A stretch of 8,014 nt of DNA from a bacterium (GTDB taxonomy: Bacteria > UBP14 > UBA6098 > JAFGQG01): positions 1 through 8,014 of the forward strand of contig JAFGGQ010000033.1 of NCBI GenBank assembly GCA_016930435.1. The letters run 5' to 3'. The translations under genes were made by a program, and so were the position numbers. Below are positions 2,486-8,014 of the stretch, one piece after another. Each line of letters opens with the position of its first letter. Positions within the stretch are counted from its first letter, which is position 1. The notes beneath the pieces are model-generated. The model saw nothing but the letters and a program-made list of their open reading frames with translations. It did no database searches and was not told the origin of the DNA.

Positions 2486-5251
2486 TCAATATATTGAATA
2501 TGATAATCCCAGAGAAAACGATAAGCCCTTCTTATAATGTCTTTGCAGAGCATCACCCTGTGTAAATTCAACTTCAGGATCTAACAGATTTTTTGCACTG
2601 AATTTCAGTTTTGCTTTGCCCAGTAATGCTTGTGATAGAGTGAAATCCAAATGCGGCACAGATTCTTCATAGATATCCGGAGTGCCTGCTATACCCACTT
2701 CAGAGATCAACCTGCCGGTTATATTAAATGCCAGGGATAAGTTAGTACCATACTTCTGATTTGAATATTCGAGCATTGTATTAAGCACATAAGGCGCCTG
2801 GCCCTGGAGAGGTCGGTCTGTGGTGGTTTCCCGGCCACCTTCCTGTAATCTTACCCGGGATCTTATCAGAGCCAGATTCCCGGAAAGTGTAAAATCAGAA
2901 AACAGATGAGTGATAACTCCCAAGCCTTGACGAAGTTCCAGTTCAATACGATAAGCATAAGCATTTTTTGCATTCTGCCAGGAGGAAGTTACTTCTGTAG
3001 CATTGAGGAGGGTTTTTTCAATAGGATTGGTAAAATGCTTGTAGAAAACCGCTAATGAAATGTTTTGAGCTAAACCCGGATACCATTCCCACCGCATATC
3101 ATAATTCTGGATCAGAGCCCTTTTAAGGTCTGGATTCCCTACGACAGCATGGCCCCCGATGTCAGTAAATTCCAAATTAGAAAGTTCCCGGAAGCTCGGT
3201 CTGGAAACGGTTTGAGAGAAACCTGCCCGAAGGTTCATATCTTCGGTTAGGCTATAGTTCAGGTTTACTGCAGGAAGAATATCGTGATTATTTACCTCAC
3301 CAATGACCGGATCGGCGTCGGGGTTGAATAGGTCGAATGTAAATACCTTCTGATAGGAAAATTCATAGCGAGCTCCCCCAACAAACCGTAAATTTCGGAG
3401 GAGGGGCATATCGGCCATCAAATAAGAAGCTACTAATGTTTGTGCAGCTCTGTAATTATCGGTTGACCGGGTATCCTCTTCAAGCTGGAAACCATCAGGC
3501 CCGATGTTTTCGGGCGAAAAGATTGCTTCGGGTTCCTGGTATATATTCACATCATTGAAGTCCTGCGGCTTATACCGGAAGCGACGGGAATCGATCTTCC
3601 TGTTCTTGTATTCAAGATTTATACCGGTCTGAAAGTTTGAAGGCAAAGAAAACCATTGCCTGAACGGAACTTTTAGGTCAGCCCCGAAATCGCCATTATG
3701 ATCGATCAGGCTACTGAAAAAACGGGAACCGCTATTGCTTTCGTCGGCTAAGCGATATTCATTTTCACCCACCCTGGACTCGAAAAGGGTTTCCCGGGTA
3801 TCCGGTTCATACCGTTGCGCTAACGAATAATTGGCTTTCCAATCCAATTCCATATTATCTGAAGAGAGCAAATGTTCTCCGGAGATACCCGTTGACAACA
3901 GGGAGCGCTCCACCCAACTCAGACGAGTACTGATCTCATCCAGATTGTGGTCCCTGTTGGGAAACATACCATAAGACTGCACTTCATCGTCGGCTGAACG
4001 GGTATAAGTAGTCCGCCAGTTTAGTTTGTGAAGGGGGGAAACCTTAAGGGAAGTATTAAAGATCCCCCCCCAGAGGACATGGAATTCGGAAATTTGATAA
4101 TCTTCATAATGATGACGGGCTTCCAATCCATTCGGCCCCTTTATATAATAAAAACGCTCCTCTTCACGGAAAGAATAACTGTTTTTATAGGTTAATGAGG
4201 CTACGTATCCAAAAGGCCGTTTGAATAGATTAGTATTGTTGCCCACGGATAAACTGTAACTTTGATTCAAAGGGGCTTTTATATCATAAGGCGTCCAAAT
4301 ATTCCTGAAGGATTCACCAAGGGTTTCTAATTCGGAGGAAGAAAAGCCGCCACCGAACATACCGCCAGGTACGATTTTTTGGTCTTCAGAGGCTTGTTTA
4401 ACCAGGTCCGGGAGGTCCCGAAAACCCTTGCCAAAACCCAAAAAGTCATAAGCGCCGCCCTCATATACCGAGAACTTGTTAAAGGTAGTCTGAGAACTAT
4501 AACCCATAGAAGCATCAAATCTGACATTGAAGCTTTCCGGGAAATCCTTGGTTGTCAGCTGGATACATCCCCCTGAAAAATCCCCGGGTAAATTGGGAGA
4601 AAAGGATTTGGCAACCACCACGTTGTCCAACAGCCCGGAAGGAAAGATATCGAAAGGCACTGCCCTTTTATCCGGCTCCGGACTGGGAAGCGAGGATCGA
4701 TTTAGTTGTGCGGTACTGTACCTTTCATTCAGCCCCCTGACAAAAACATATTTATCACTATCGATGGTTATACCGGTTACCCTTTTCAGGGCATCAGACG
4801 CCTTAGAATCACCACCCGCGGAGATCTGTTCAGATGAAATGCCCGAATTTATGGTTGCCGCCTTTTTCTGCCCGTTTAGCAATCCCTCCACGGAAGACCT
4901 GATCTTTTTTGCGGTTACCGTTATTACATTATGGGTAAGGGCTTCGGGAGTAATACTCAAATCCAGACGGGAAGTATTACCCTCTTTTACTACAACGTCG
5001 GTAACCATAATCCCGGCATATCCGATCCGGCTGGCGACCAGGGTATGATTGCCTGCCGGCACACCGTCGATCCGATAAATCCCATCAAGGTCGGAAGCGT
5101 CCCCGATCTTATATTCTTCCACAACAATATTAACGCCCGGCAGGGGTTCTCCGGTCTCACCATCCAGTACCTTCCCCTCTATCTTGGAGCCCCAGCAGAA
5201 TGAAATCAGCGCCAGAAGAATAAAAACCGCAATAAATAAGCATTTTTTCAT
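2486..5251 (-). CDS. TonB-dependent outer-membrane receptor with carboxypeptidase-regulatory-like N-terminal domain
   Basis: This is a 921-aa outer-membrane active transporter. A signal peptide (about 1-21, ending SFCWG) precedes a carboxypeptidase-regulatory-like Ig-fold domain (about 24-100, with GKVLDGETGEPLPGVNI and DLDGIYRIDGVPAGNH). Next is a TonB-box-like segment NVITVTA (108-114). The plug (about 125-236) contains VRGLNERYST, a PSPEPDKRAVPFDIFPSGLL stretch and NVVVAKSFSPNLPGDFSGG. The beta-barrel fills about 245-921 and ends in an aromatic tail (SLGLSYSIY), as expected for BAM recognition. I placed the start at 5251 because GGAG (5257-5260) sits 5 nt upstream of this MKK. An in-frame ATG 13 codons earlier would add a polar, charged leader before the signal peptide. 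This plug subtype is, as I recall, the one typically paired with beta-helix lipoproteins like the downstream gene. The substrate cannot be read from sequence. Confidence 0.95.
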   Translation of the reverse strand: MKKCLFIAVFILLALISFCWGSKIEGKVLDGETGEPLPGVNIVVEEYKIGDASDLDGIYRIDGVPAGNHTLVASRIGYAGIMVTDVVVKEGNTSRLDLSITPEALTHNVITVTAKKIRSSVEGLLNGQKKAATINSGISSEQISAGGDSKASDALKRVTGITIDSDKYVFVRGLNERYSTAQLNRSSLPSPEPDKRAVPFDIFPSGLLDNVVVAKSFSPNLPGDFSGGCIQLTTKDFPESFNVRFDASMGYSSQTTFNKFSVYEGGAYDFLGFGKGFRDLPDLVKQASEDQKIVPGGMFGGGFSSSELETLGESFRNIWTPYDIKAPLNQSYSLSVGNNTNLFKRPFGYVASLTYKNSYSFREEERFYYIKGPNGLEARHHYEDYQISEFHVLWGGIFNTSLKVSPLHKLNWRTTYTRSADDEVQSYGMFPNRDHNLDEISTRLSWVERSLLSTGISGEHLLSSDNMELDWKANYSLAQRYEPDTRETLFESRVGENEYRLADESNSGSRFFSSLIDHNGDFGADLKVPFRQWFSLPSNFQTGINLEYKNRKIDSRRFRYKPQDFNDVNIYQEPEAIFSPENIGPDGFQLEEDTRSTDNYRAAQTLVASYLMADMPLLRNLRFVGGARYEFSYQKVFTFDLFNPDADPVIGEVNNHDILPAVNLNYSLTEDMNLRAGFSQTVSRPSFRELSNLEFTDIGGHAVVGNPDLKRALIQNYDMRWEWYPGLAQNISLAVFYKHFTNPIEKTLLNATEVTSSWQNAKNAYAYRIELELRQGLGVITHLFSDFTLSGNLALIRSRVRLQEGGRETTTDRPLQGQAPYVLNTMLEYSNQKYGTNLSLAFNITGRLISEVGIAGTPDIYEESVPHLDFTLSQALLGKAKLKFSAKNLLDPEVEFTQGDALQRHYKKGLSFSLGLSYSIY

Positions 5252-5365
5252 TTTTTCTCCATGTCCCTTTGTTCCTGAAAACACACACATTAAAGTTGAA
5301 TCTCTCTAAATCATCCTGATTAACAAAAAATATCTGGGGGGAGAATAAGTGAGGAATGTAAATGC

Positions 5366-5645: not shown

Positions 5646-5709
5646 GCAGTATCCCGCCAAACAGAGAGAATAACTTAAGAATTCCAAAACCTTAAGCAAA
5701 GGGGGAGTC

Positions 5710-5973
5710 ATGAATGTATTAATAAAATTCAAATTGCCTATCCTGATCCTGCTGCTCTTACTACCACTCGCAATAAACTTGCTGTTTGCCGATTATGAAC
5801 CAACGGACAGGAATGGCTTCAGAATTGTAGAGGGGAATATCGAGACCTGCTATTGCGGACCGTCTATGCAGTGTTTTCCGTGTTATGATAGGGTAGAAGA
5901 TTCCGGATCGGGATGGGATAAATTCCTTGATTTTTTGAGTAAAATATCCCCTATTTTCGAACTATTTAAATGA
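5710..5973 (+). CDS. Small exported cysteine-motif peptide, copy 1
   Basis: This 87-aa product matches no family I can name. Residues 9-27 are strongly hydrophobic and end in LLFA before D28, consistent with a signal peptide or an N-terminal membrane anchor. An acidic linker (28-46) leads to a tight four-cysteine cluster, C47-Y-C49, C55 and C58, reading CYCGPSMQCFPCY. The tail from about 69 (WDKFLDFLSKISPIFELF) should form an amphipathic, aromatic-rich helix. The start at 5710 is preceded by the purine run AAAGGGGGAG (5698-5707). The stop overlaps an upstream ATG of the next gene as ATGA. The next gene encodes a peptide with the same plan, and propeller genes follow. After export the cysteines could form two disulfides or bind a metal. 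Layout recalls NVEALA-type peptides of Bacteroides, but I see no NVEALA sequence. Confidence 0.75.
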   Translation: MNVLIKFKLPILILLLLLPLAINLLFADYEPTDRNGFRIVEGNIETCYCGPSMQCFPCYDRVEDSGSGWDKFLDFLSKISPIFELFK

Positions 5974-5984
5974 AAGGAATTCAA

Positions 5985-6230
5985 ATGAAAAAAAAGCTAA
6001 TTGTTGCTTTCGTTCTGGTTAATTTGTTTCTGGTCTTCTCCTCTGCTTTACTTGGAAAAATGGCCGCGCAGGACAAAGAAGGCTGGTTTGACTGGACCGA
6101 CGATAGTCGAAGCAGCTATATCTGTAGATGTGAAGGCATTGGCTGCAGACCCTGTTGGGGGCAAGAACCCAGTTTTGCCGAAAAGATCGAGAACTTGATC
6201 GGGAAATGGTTTTTTAATAACTATGAATGA
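5985..6230 (+). CDS. Small exported cysteine-motif peptide, copy 2
   Basis: This 81-aa product is a divergent relative of the preceding peptide. A lysine-rich n-region (MKKK) and hydrophobic core (5-23) form a signal peptide, perhaps cleaved after A27-A28. A charged, tryptophan-containing linker (29-46, KEGWFDWTDDSRSS) leads to C47-R-C49, C54 and C57, reading CRCEGIGCRPCW. The tail (FAEKIENLIGKWFF) is again an amphipathic helix. The first two cysteines fall at residues 47 and 49 in both peptides. I chose ATG 5985 because AAAGGA (5973-5978) lies 6 nt upstream. The in-frame ATG at 5970 overlaps the previous stop but has no comparable site. The gene is 11 nt from its upstream partner and 35 nt from the first propeller gene, so all are probably cotranscribed. 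Function is unknown; CxPC recalls the thioredoxin CGPC motif, but the peptide is far too short for that fold. Confidence 0.75.
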   Translation: MKKKLIVAFVLVNLFLVFSSALLGKMAAQDKEGWFDWTDDSRSSYICRCEGIGCRPCWGQEPSFAEKIENLIGKWFFNNYE

Positions 6231-6265
6231 TTTATTTGCGGATTAAATAGCTAACTGGAGTTTTT

Positions 6266-7348
6266 ATGACGAAAAGCTGCGGAATTGTTGTATTAATTCT
6301 GTTTCTCATTTCCGGGCTATATGGCCAGACCGGTTTCTATGACCTGTTTGAACCTGTTAATTCCTTTACCTTGTCCCTGCCGGATTCAGTTCCTCCTATG
6401 GGCGAGATCAGGGACATTGACGTTAACCCTTCAGGCGAAATGTTCCTGCTTGAAGGCGGGGGAAGCAGGATCATGAAATTTTCGCGGAAAGGAGTCTTTG
6501 TCAAACAGTGGGGCGGAAAAAATGCCGTCGGTAAATACCACCTTTCAGTATTGGGATCAGCATTTATAGATACCAGCAGATCCGAGCTGATAGTAGCTGA
6601 TTGGCTCAAAGGCAGAGTCGTCTTCTTCGATTACAATGGCAAATACAAGGATTCCTTTCTGACATCGTCCCATCTTATAGGAATAGACGGAGCTATCCCT
6701 CATCCCACCGAAAAAAACTGGTACGCCATCGGCGGGATCATTGCCCAAAACCACCAGTTTTTCCGGGAGAAAGAATACTACGCCAAAGGCATGCACATCT
6801 TCGACCGAAAGGGAAAATACCGGGAATCTGCTTTTGACCTCTACAGAAAAGAAATTCTGGAAAAAAACAACTTCAATTATCTCACTACAGTACTGAACCT
6901 GCACGGTAATAATATTATTGCCGGATACATTACCAGTTATAAGATCTCCATTATCAACCCCGAAGGGAAAATCGAAAGATACCTGAACGAAAAACCCGAT
7001 AAATGGCATCAACTCGAGATCAGTGCCGAAGACGCTTTTAAGGATCTGCTGTATAGCTTTTCAACTATCCGGAGTATAGACGTTCATAATGATCATATTA
7101 TTGTCCTGTATTCATATTATTCTCAGGAAGAAAAAACACTGTTGAGTACCCCTCAGCTTCTTATTTATAATCCCTCAAACGTGCTGATCGGAAATGGAAT
7201 AGAGGTCAGCTGGTTATCCGGGAATGATAATCAGAATGCCCGTATATTTCGGAAGGGCTTTGATGGTCTATTCTATGCTGTTCGGTTAAAGGATGGGAGT
7301 GATGAAAACAGCGGCTATGAGGTGGGCCTCTTTAAGCCCCGGTTTTAG
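6266..7348 (+). CDS. Exported six-bladed beta-propeller protein (NHL/TolB-like), copy 1
   Basis: The product is 360 aa with a signal peptide (about 1-20, ending SGLYG before Q21). It has no lipobox and no mature cysteine, so it is probably soluble in the periplasm or secreted. The body shows repeated blade signatures in which a strand reading 'visible or remembered state' is followed by an aromatic/FD turn and a G-K strand. Examples are GEMFLLEGGGSRIMKFSRKG (57-76), ELIVADWLKGRVVFFDYNGK (107-126), GMHIFDRKGKYRES (175-188), NNIIAGYITSYKISIINPEG (215-234) and PQLLIYNPS (296-304). This matches the six-bladed propeller proteins of Bacteroidota (PF17170/TolB-like class), typically binding or scaffold proteins with no catalytic residues. 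CTGGAG (6255-6260) sits 5 nt before the ATG. It lies between the cysteine peptides and a paralogous propeller gene that overlaps its 3' end. The ligand is unknown; the neighbouring peptides are the obvious candidates, by inference. Confidence 0.8.
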   Translation: MTKSCGIVVLILFLISGLYGQTGFYDLFEPVNSFTLSLPDSVPPMGEIRDIDVNPSGEMFLLEGGGSRIMKFSRKGVFVKQWGGKNAVGKYHLSVLGSAFIDTSRSELIVADWLKGRVVFFDYNGKYKDSFLTSSHLIGIDGAIPHPTEKNWYAIGGIIAQNHQFFREKEYYAKGMHIFDRKGKYRESAFDLYRKEILEKNNFNYLTTVLNLHGNNIIAGYITSYKISIINPEGKIERYLNEKPDKWHQLEISAEDAFKDLLYSFSTIRSIDVHNDHIIVLYSYYSQEEKTLLSTPQLLIYNPSNVLIGNGIEVSWLSGNDNQNARIFRKGFDGLFYAVRLKDGSDENSGYEVGLFKPRF

Positions 7349-8014
7349 AATCCTTTTTTTGCTGGGGATATTAATCTCATTCGCCGGCTATACATTCGCC
7401 GAAGATGACTTGTATGACTATTTCCGGCTCGAAAAAGAGATCGCTATCGACCCTTTCTGCGTCGATCCCCCACTGGGGAGCTGCAACGAGATCACACAAA
7501 ACCGGGATGGGATTCTGTTTATGGGATTTTTTCCCAGCCAGCGCCTTTTAAGCTTCACCCCAGAAGGAAAACCACTTAATATCTTTACGGGAAAATACGA
7601 AGCGGGGAAAAGAAATCCTTACCTGATTGCCAATGACCCATTTTTCTGTGAAGAAGAAGGATACATCGTAGTATCCGATTTTTTCAACCGCAGAGTGATG
7701 TATTTTAACTTAAACGCCAAGTTAAAGGACTCCTTTATCGCTAATGCTGATAAGCTCTATGACCTGACCCAAACCGTGCATTTCCGGGATTATGTTCTGG
7801 TAGGAGGGATGGCCCTCGATTTCATTCAGGAAAAACCACTCCTGTGGAATGGTTGGTACCTGCACGTCTTTGACAGGAATGGGAAGTACCTGAAAAGCCT
7901 TTTTGAAGCATATCCGGAGATGGTAAAGAATAACAGGTTCCGTAATAACGGAGGCTTGGTGGCCGTTGCCGGTGACCGTATATACTGCGCCCAGACCTGC
8001 CATTACCTGATTTC
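7302..8014 (+). CDS. Exported six-bladed beta-propeller protein, copy 2, 3' end outside the window
   Basis: An open frame overlaps the end of the preceding propeller gene and stays open to the window edge, giving at least 237 aa. The best start is ATG 7302, with AAAGGA (7288-7293) 8 nt upstream. ATG 7317 is a second option. Residues about 17-33 (ILFLLGILISFAGYTFA) form a signal peptide before E34. The mature part parallels copy 1: GYIVVSDFFNRRVMYFNLNA (120-139) matches its ELIVADWLKGRVVFFDYNGK, and LHVFDRNGKYLKSLFEAYPE (187-206) matches its MHIFDRKGKYRESAFDLYRK. Unlike copy 1 it contains mature cysteines C53, C61, C116, C229 and C233, so disulfides within it or with the cysteine peptides are conceivable. 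The 47-nt overlap implies translational coupling. Presence of the gene is well supported; its length and C-terminus are not visible. Confidence 0.85.
   Translation, partial: MKTAAMRWASLSPGFRILFLLGILISFAGYTFAEDDLYDYFRLEKEIAIDPFCVDPPLGSCNEITQNRDGILFMGFFPSQRLLSFTPEGKPLNIFTGKYEAGKRNPYLIANDPFFCEEEGYIVVSDFFNRRVMYFNLNAKLKDSFIANADKLYDLTQTVHFRDYVLVGGMALDFIQEKPLLWNGWYLHVFDRNGKYLKSLFEAYPEMVKNNRFRNNGGLVAVAGDRIYCAQTCHYLI

Follow-up and report, generated by a model that had tools for sequence, protein, structure and literature searches.

Exported cysteine peptides encoded ahead of beta-propellers recur outside their lineage and may form a cell-envelope system

The right end of the window (the whole stretch of DNA analysed here, which is the entire 8014-b contig C61 of the draft genome G000) encodes two small exported cysteine peptides and two tandem beta-propellers, all on the plus strand between positions 5710 and 8014. 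Pairs of such peptides and homologous propellers recur in other genomes, and we hold with fair confidence, based on sequence comparison, that the peptide–propeller system is real and recurring. Because the same pairing is found in unrelated bacteria, in many cases next to genes for disulfide handling, it looks like a real, unstudied cell-envelope system. The peptides and propellers probably constitute one functional unit.

Peptide 1 (87 aa, 5710–5973, +) is separated by 11 nt from peptide 2 (81 aa, 5985–6230, +), which is followed after 35 nt by propeller 1 (360 aa, 6266–7348, +); the ORF of propeller 1 overlaps by 47 nt that of propeller 2 (7302–8014, +), which is open at the contig end. Our ORF calls agree with the coordinates, gaps and overlap that the first-pass annotation had given for four exported proteins. 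All four starts are preceded by a Shine-Dalgarno-like sequence, which for peptide 1 is GGGGGAG (5701–5707, +) and for peptide 2 is AAAGGA (5973–5978, +). The latter lies upstream of the ATG that yields the 81-aa product; a start at another ATG of this frame, at 5970, would lengthen it to 86 aa. No promoter-like site exceeding chance was found upstream of the four genes, and an Rfam search of the window returned no family. By their layout the four genes read as a real operon. Elsewhere the window holds a divergently oriented pair on the minus strand, a lipoprotein-like beta-helix protein (1087–2367) and a TonB-dependent receptor containing a CarboxypepD_reg domain (2486–5290), which lie outside the finding, and a 286-aa lipoprotein-like ORF with an LLVSC lipobox and a TTG start (129–989, +), for which family searches gave no match.

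Both peptides have a hydrophobic, signal-like N-terminal segment. The C-x-C-x(4-5)-C-x-P-C motif recognised by the first-pass annotation is present in both, as CYCGPSMQCFPC in peptide 1 (C-x-C-x5-C-x-P-C, 5848–5883, +), which ends in ...WDKFLDFLSKISPIFELFK, and as CRCEGIGCRPC in peptide 2 (C-x-C-x4-C-x-P-C, 6123–6155, +), which has a helix-prone tail. We applied a detector combining a hydrophobic N-terminus, a cysteine cluster and the motif to the ORFs; it recovered both peptides in the real window versus no ORF in 300 first-order Markov shuffles. The two peptides share only their layout and the motif and have no BLAST similarity to each other. Peptide 1 has no match in Pfam, NCBIfam or PADLOC and no significant match in PHROGs. 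In the 16 other genomes of the class the DNA pattern of the motif occurs, never inside a small exported ORF, and these matches were rejected as chance out-of-context frames. Weak peptide matches in the class (E 0.003–1) were likewise rejected as pieces of larger or unrelated ORFs.

Propeller 1 and propeller 2 are paralogous to each other (E 1e-16, 26–28% identity), and neither has a meaningful match in Pfam (none at E<=1), NCBIfam, PHROGs or PADLOC. Against solved structures, phmmer matched them weakly to NHL domains. An AlphaFold2 model of propeller 1, built from only two sequences and of modest confidence (pTM 0.62, mean pLDDT 60), shows a beta-propeller behind an N-terminal signal-like helix. 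With this model the best Foldseek matches were NHL domains (E 5e-11), and the exported protein BF0058 of Bacteroides fragilis (4raa) was also matched; propeller 1 is thus predicted to adopt the NHL beta-propeller fold, with a blade number that is not secure at a mean pLDDT of 60. In an hhalign comparison, the window pair aligned with five homologues over 226 columns (probability 97.7, E 2.3e-12), and four of these five exceed the cut-off of DUF5128 (PF17170). Homologues in G089, G299 and G230 pass this cut-off (with E values of 1.9e-10 and 8.7e-11 among the DUF5128 matches of homologues), while the window propellers themselves do not reach the gathering threshold; the hhalign result gives them homology over the domain to accepted DUF5128 members. 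When the window propellers are built into a profile with their family, this profile matches BF0058 with E 1e-12. By profile homology via intermediates, the window propellers are tied to the DUF5128 six-bladed propellers. Another, distant exported NHL-type propeller is encoded elsewhere in G000 (contig C55, L143 9715–10554), without a convincing peptide neighbour.

In the NVEALA (PF14055) loci of Bacteroides, a peptide of 60–90 aa with a hydrophobic N-terminus and a cysteine-bearing C-terminus is encoded together with TolB-like/DUF5128 six-bladed propellers. The window peptides resemble these in being short and exported, with C-terminal cysteines, and in lying beside a propeller of the six-bladed type, but they carry a different cysteine motif and have no PF14055 match at E<=1. 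NVEALA went undetected in all 386 genomes searched, G000 included, while the Bacteroides ihuae control was positive. The window propellers are like DUF5128, TolB_like (PF15869) and BF0058 by their homologues, by the joint profile and by fold, and unlike DUF5128 and TolB_like members in having no direct Pfam match. The likeness to NVEALA loci proposed by the first-pass annotation holds by analogy only: the peptides are not NVEALA by profile, and the propellers link via intermediates to DUF5128 and BF0058. On this analogy, the window operon is a relative of the NVEALA–propeller loci in layout, not by profile. Literature searches found no papers for NVEALA and, for DUF5128-type proteins, only propeller papers on other topics.

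Among the 17 genomes of the class, propellers or peptides are found in G000 only, and the 16 others are without a homologue. A profile search of 386 genomes revealed a near full-length propeller relative in G089, directly upstream of which, on the same strand, lies an exported cysteine peptide ending in CACPVLAGDCVCKWIPR. Within the phylum of G089 (40 genomes), G401 holds a clear propeller homologue (E 6e-25), and there the gene order is that of the window: two tandem exported cysteine peptides (MRKLY..CHCPIIQGDCMC.. and MSKKS..CSCPVLYGDCYC..) and then the homologous propeller. A profile built from these three peptides, two of G401 and one of G089, is strong in only two of the 40 genomes, G089 and G401, and full-length propeller matches are likewise confined to these two. 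By our own arithmetic, two independent genome pairs drawn from 40 coincide exactly in 1 of 780 draws, and the chance of this coincidence is smaller still because the peptide and propeller genes adjoin.

A search started from G401 led to G299, which is absent from these 40 genomes; neither G299 nor G344 belongs to the phylum of G089, since that phylum was searched whole. One contig of G299 (C40) encodes in a single run a TlpA-like protein, a MauE–AhpC/TSA fusion, an exported cysteine peptide and two propellers, and so shares with the window, in a third phylum, a cysteine peptide followed by two tandem propellers. A second contig (C54) has a propeller followed by a ResA-like thioredoxin, and also two ORFs (L206 1549–2322 and 2761–3096) with Gly/Ala/Cys-rich hydrophobic ends and a bacteriocin-like look. 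The order in G402 is thioredoxin-like lipoprotein, exported cysteine peptide, propeller and MauE. G230 (contig C61) has a MauE remnant, an exported peptide with two cysteines and two lipoproteins, the first a propeller and the second thioredoxin-like. In G344 (contig C476), a MauE–rhodanese fusion (L223 6627–7469) lies two genes ahead of an exported cysteine peptide that reaches the contig end, with an unknown gene between them. Altogether, an exported cysteine peptide directly upstream of a homologous propeller was found in other phyla in G401, G089, G299 (C40) and G402.

Of 98 propeller ORF entries whose upstream DNA could be read, the detector flagged 8, a count that takes in duplicates and chance calls (a false-positive reading frame in G230 and one unrelated match in L143), where roughly one chance match is expected among 98 entries. 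Because the profile was trained on positive loci, this count illustrates rather than proves enrichment. The genuine calls belong to the nearest homologues, whereas generic NHL propellers mostly lack an upstream peptide. The argument for the pairing, drawn from gene content and order, is carried by the 40-genome co-occurrence, the double-peptide order of G401 and the peptide–propeller–propeller order of G299. The peptide–propeller unit proposed at first reading is thereby supported, as it recurs outside the lineage with the peptide genes immediately preceding the propeller gene in the same orientation, and as peptides and full-length propeller homologues coincide in two genomes of the one phylum tested whole. 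The first-pass annotation had also reasoned that propellers found routinely without peptides would contradict such a unit, which is the case for generic NHL propellers but not for the close homologues.

The peptides of the window and those of G401 and G089 are not alignable beyond length, signal and four cysteines, and their cysteine spacing differs (C-x-C-x4/5-C-x-x-C in the window versus C-x-C-x6-C-x-C). Since window and other-locus peptides have size, export signal and clustered cysteines in common but no alignable sequence, common descent is not established. Degenerate-pattern scans of genome and viral contigs, based on propeller 1 or on both propellers, confirmed no relative. A DNA pattern for CxCPxxxGDCxC gave six matches in viral contigs, which were rejected as none lies in a usable reading frame, and tblastn in plasmids returned only generic NHL/gluconolactonase matches.

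Other loci have MauE and thioredoxin/AhpC-like genes nearby, which suggests that the peptide's thiol state is important. Disulfide formation in methylamine dehydrogenase is a speculated role of MauE, and candidate RiPP clusters include MauE genes (PMC7794033). The related loci resemble methylamine dehydrogenase maturation by MauE/MauD and the MauE-bearing RiPP candidates in that an exported cysteine peptide is accompanied by genes for MauE and thioredoxin-like proteins; unlike methylamine dehydrogenase systems, they contain no amine dehydrogenase genes that we could see, and G000 has no MauE match. In NHLRC2 and SOQ1, thioredoxin-like and NHL propeller domains occur in one polypeptide (PMC6107167), which indicates that both domain types can work together; these proteins share the two domain types with the related loci and differ as eukaryotic fusions without a peptide partner. 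A literature search for MauE plus propeller found no papers. MauE (PF07291) had no match in three class relatives or in G000, whose assembly (2.85 Mb, 180 contigs) is 90% complete and whose contig ends inside the operon; oxidation there, if any, would therefore be carried out by an unlinked enzyme or by one lost to an assembly gap. The MauE of G401 was not counted, as it sits among housekeeping genes away from the cassette. The nearby maturation partner anticipated by the first-pass annotation fits the related loci, in which the pair is flanked by genes for MauE and thioredoxin/AhpC-like proteins, but G000 gave no MauE match. From these neighbourhoods we infer that the peptide–propeller envelope system may frequently be served by a MauE/TlpA-type disulfide relay.

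We propose the following working model. N-terminal signals, which are sequence features only, would export peptides and propellers separately. In the periplasm, the four clustered cysteines would be brought into one definite state, disulfide-bonded or metal-bound, in many relatives by the MauE-type membrane protein and TlpA/AhpC-like thioredoxin of adjoining genes and in G000 presumably by an unlinked or unrecovered oxidoreductase. The folded peptide, oxidised or metal-loaded, would then dock on its cognate propeller as a ligand or small subunit, as conserved adjacency and co-occurrence suggest. Conserved adjacency of the genes supports a shared function, and capture of the peptide by the propeller is, from gene order and co-occurrence, a proposition with an even chance of being right. 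We place the fuller reading, in which all four genes belong to a single envelope operon whose six-bladed NHL-type propellers bind Sec-exported cysteine peptides outside the cytoplasm, at the same midpoint. That a thiol/disulfide relay sets the state of the peptide falls a little short of even. More tentatively, the loci may represent an undescribed system in at least three phyla, comprising fast-diverging Sec-exported cysteine peptides, dedicated MauE/thioredoxin oxidation and capture by cognate tandem six-bladed propellers, with the Bacteroides NVEALA loci as one named branch.

In G401, G089, G402 and G230 the cassette forms an AT-rich island of about 27–48% G+C against about 50–60% in its surroundings (L139 4000–5667, L140 1–1000, L141 1–4000 and L212 1–7500), which suggests recent gain or relaxed composition; the window has only a mild dip (38–45%). 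In five genomes a contig ends in or beside the cassette, namely G000 (window 7302–8014), G401 (C167, L139 end), G089 (C114, L140 start), G299 (C54, L206 start) and G344 (C476, L223 end), and this points to repeated or strain-variable sequence there. The AT-rich islands would suit an antagonism cassette, in which the disulfide-stabilised exported peptides are bacteriocin-like toxins that the propellers bind for self-protection or delivery. So would the sporadic distribution, the fast-diverging small peptides, the tandem propeller paralogues and the bacteriocin-like Gly/Cys-rich hydrophobic ORFs 3' of the propeller and thioredoxin of G299 (C54, L206 1549–3096). Nevertheless, the peptides have a typical Sec signal and not a double-glycine leader, no ABC exporter lies nearby, and we know of no immunity protein that is a propeller of this kind. 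The tail is absent from the G401 peptides, and its amphipathicity in the window is marginal: an antimicrobial-helix reading was rejected, as the observed value is reached by 3.8% of shuffles for peptide 1, a marginal result, and by 9% for peptide 2, which lacks significance. We consider antagonism unlikely.

Metal handling, in which the clustered cysteines bind copper, zinc or similar and the propeller is a carrier or receptor, in a role comparable to that of exported bufferins, seems to us equally unlikely. The C-x-C...C-x-P-C spacing is suitable for metal binding, and the MauE protein of a related locus weakly matches HvfX, a family of Cu-binding RiPP maturation (E 1.4e-4). Copper is bound by exported Cys-motif RiPPs with DoxX partners (PMC12452194). 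Like the window peptides, the bufferins and oxazolins (MNIO RiPPs, PMC12452194) are short, Sec-exported and marked by a cysteine motif, and they have a DoxX-family membrane partner. Unlike in bufferin clusters, for which PMC12452194 mentions no propellers, no MNIO or partner gene was seen; none of the window ORFs encodes an MNIO (DUF692) enzyme beside the precursor, and no DUF692 or DUF2063-type gene was found in the window or recognised in neighbouring loci. Moreover, cysteine spacing differs between loci, and the G230 peptide has two cysteines only.

A chance neighbourhood, in which small exported proteins of no relation happen to lie next to an NHL propeller of a common kind, is improbable. 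NHL propellers are abundant, most lack such a neighbour, and about one detector match is expected by chance; but chance accounts poorly for tandem peptides ahead of a homologous propeller in another phylum (G401), for the exact co-occurrence across 40 genomes or for the peptide with two propellers in a third (G299). An oxidoreductase made of a small Cys-rich subunit and a propeller, on the pattern of methylamine dehydrogenase or quinohemoprotein amine dehydrogenase, is the least probable reading, since, although relatives contain the same ingredients (a small exported Cys-rich chain, a propeller chain and MauE/MauD-type genes), amine dehydrogenase propellers are seven-bladed quinoprotein types, the peptides have 2–6 cysteines, and no cytochrome, radical SAM or quinone-cofactor maturase was recognised in the loci examined.

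The family libraries that we searched assign no function to NVEALA-type peptides or DUF5128 propellers. The pairing of peptide and propeller beyond the range of NVEALA, together with a disulfide module in several genomes, yields a testable hypothesis, namely that a redox-set exported peptide is held by a propeller. If true, this would provide the first mechanism for exported proteins that are now annotated by fold alone.
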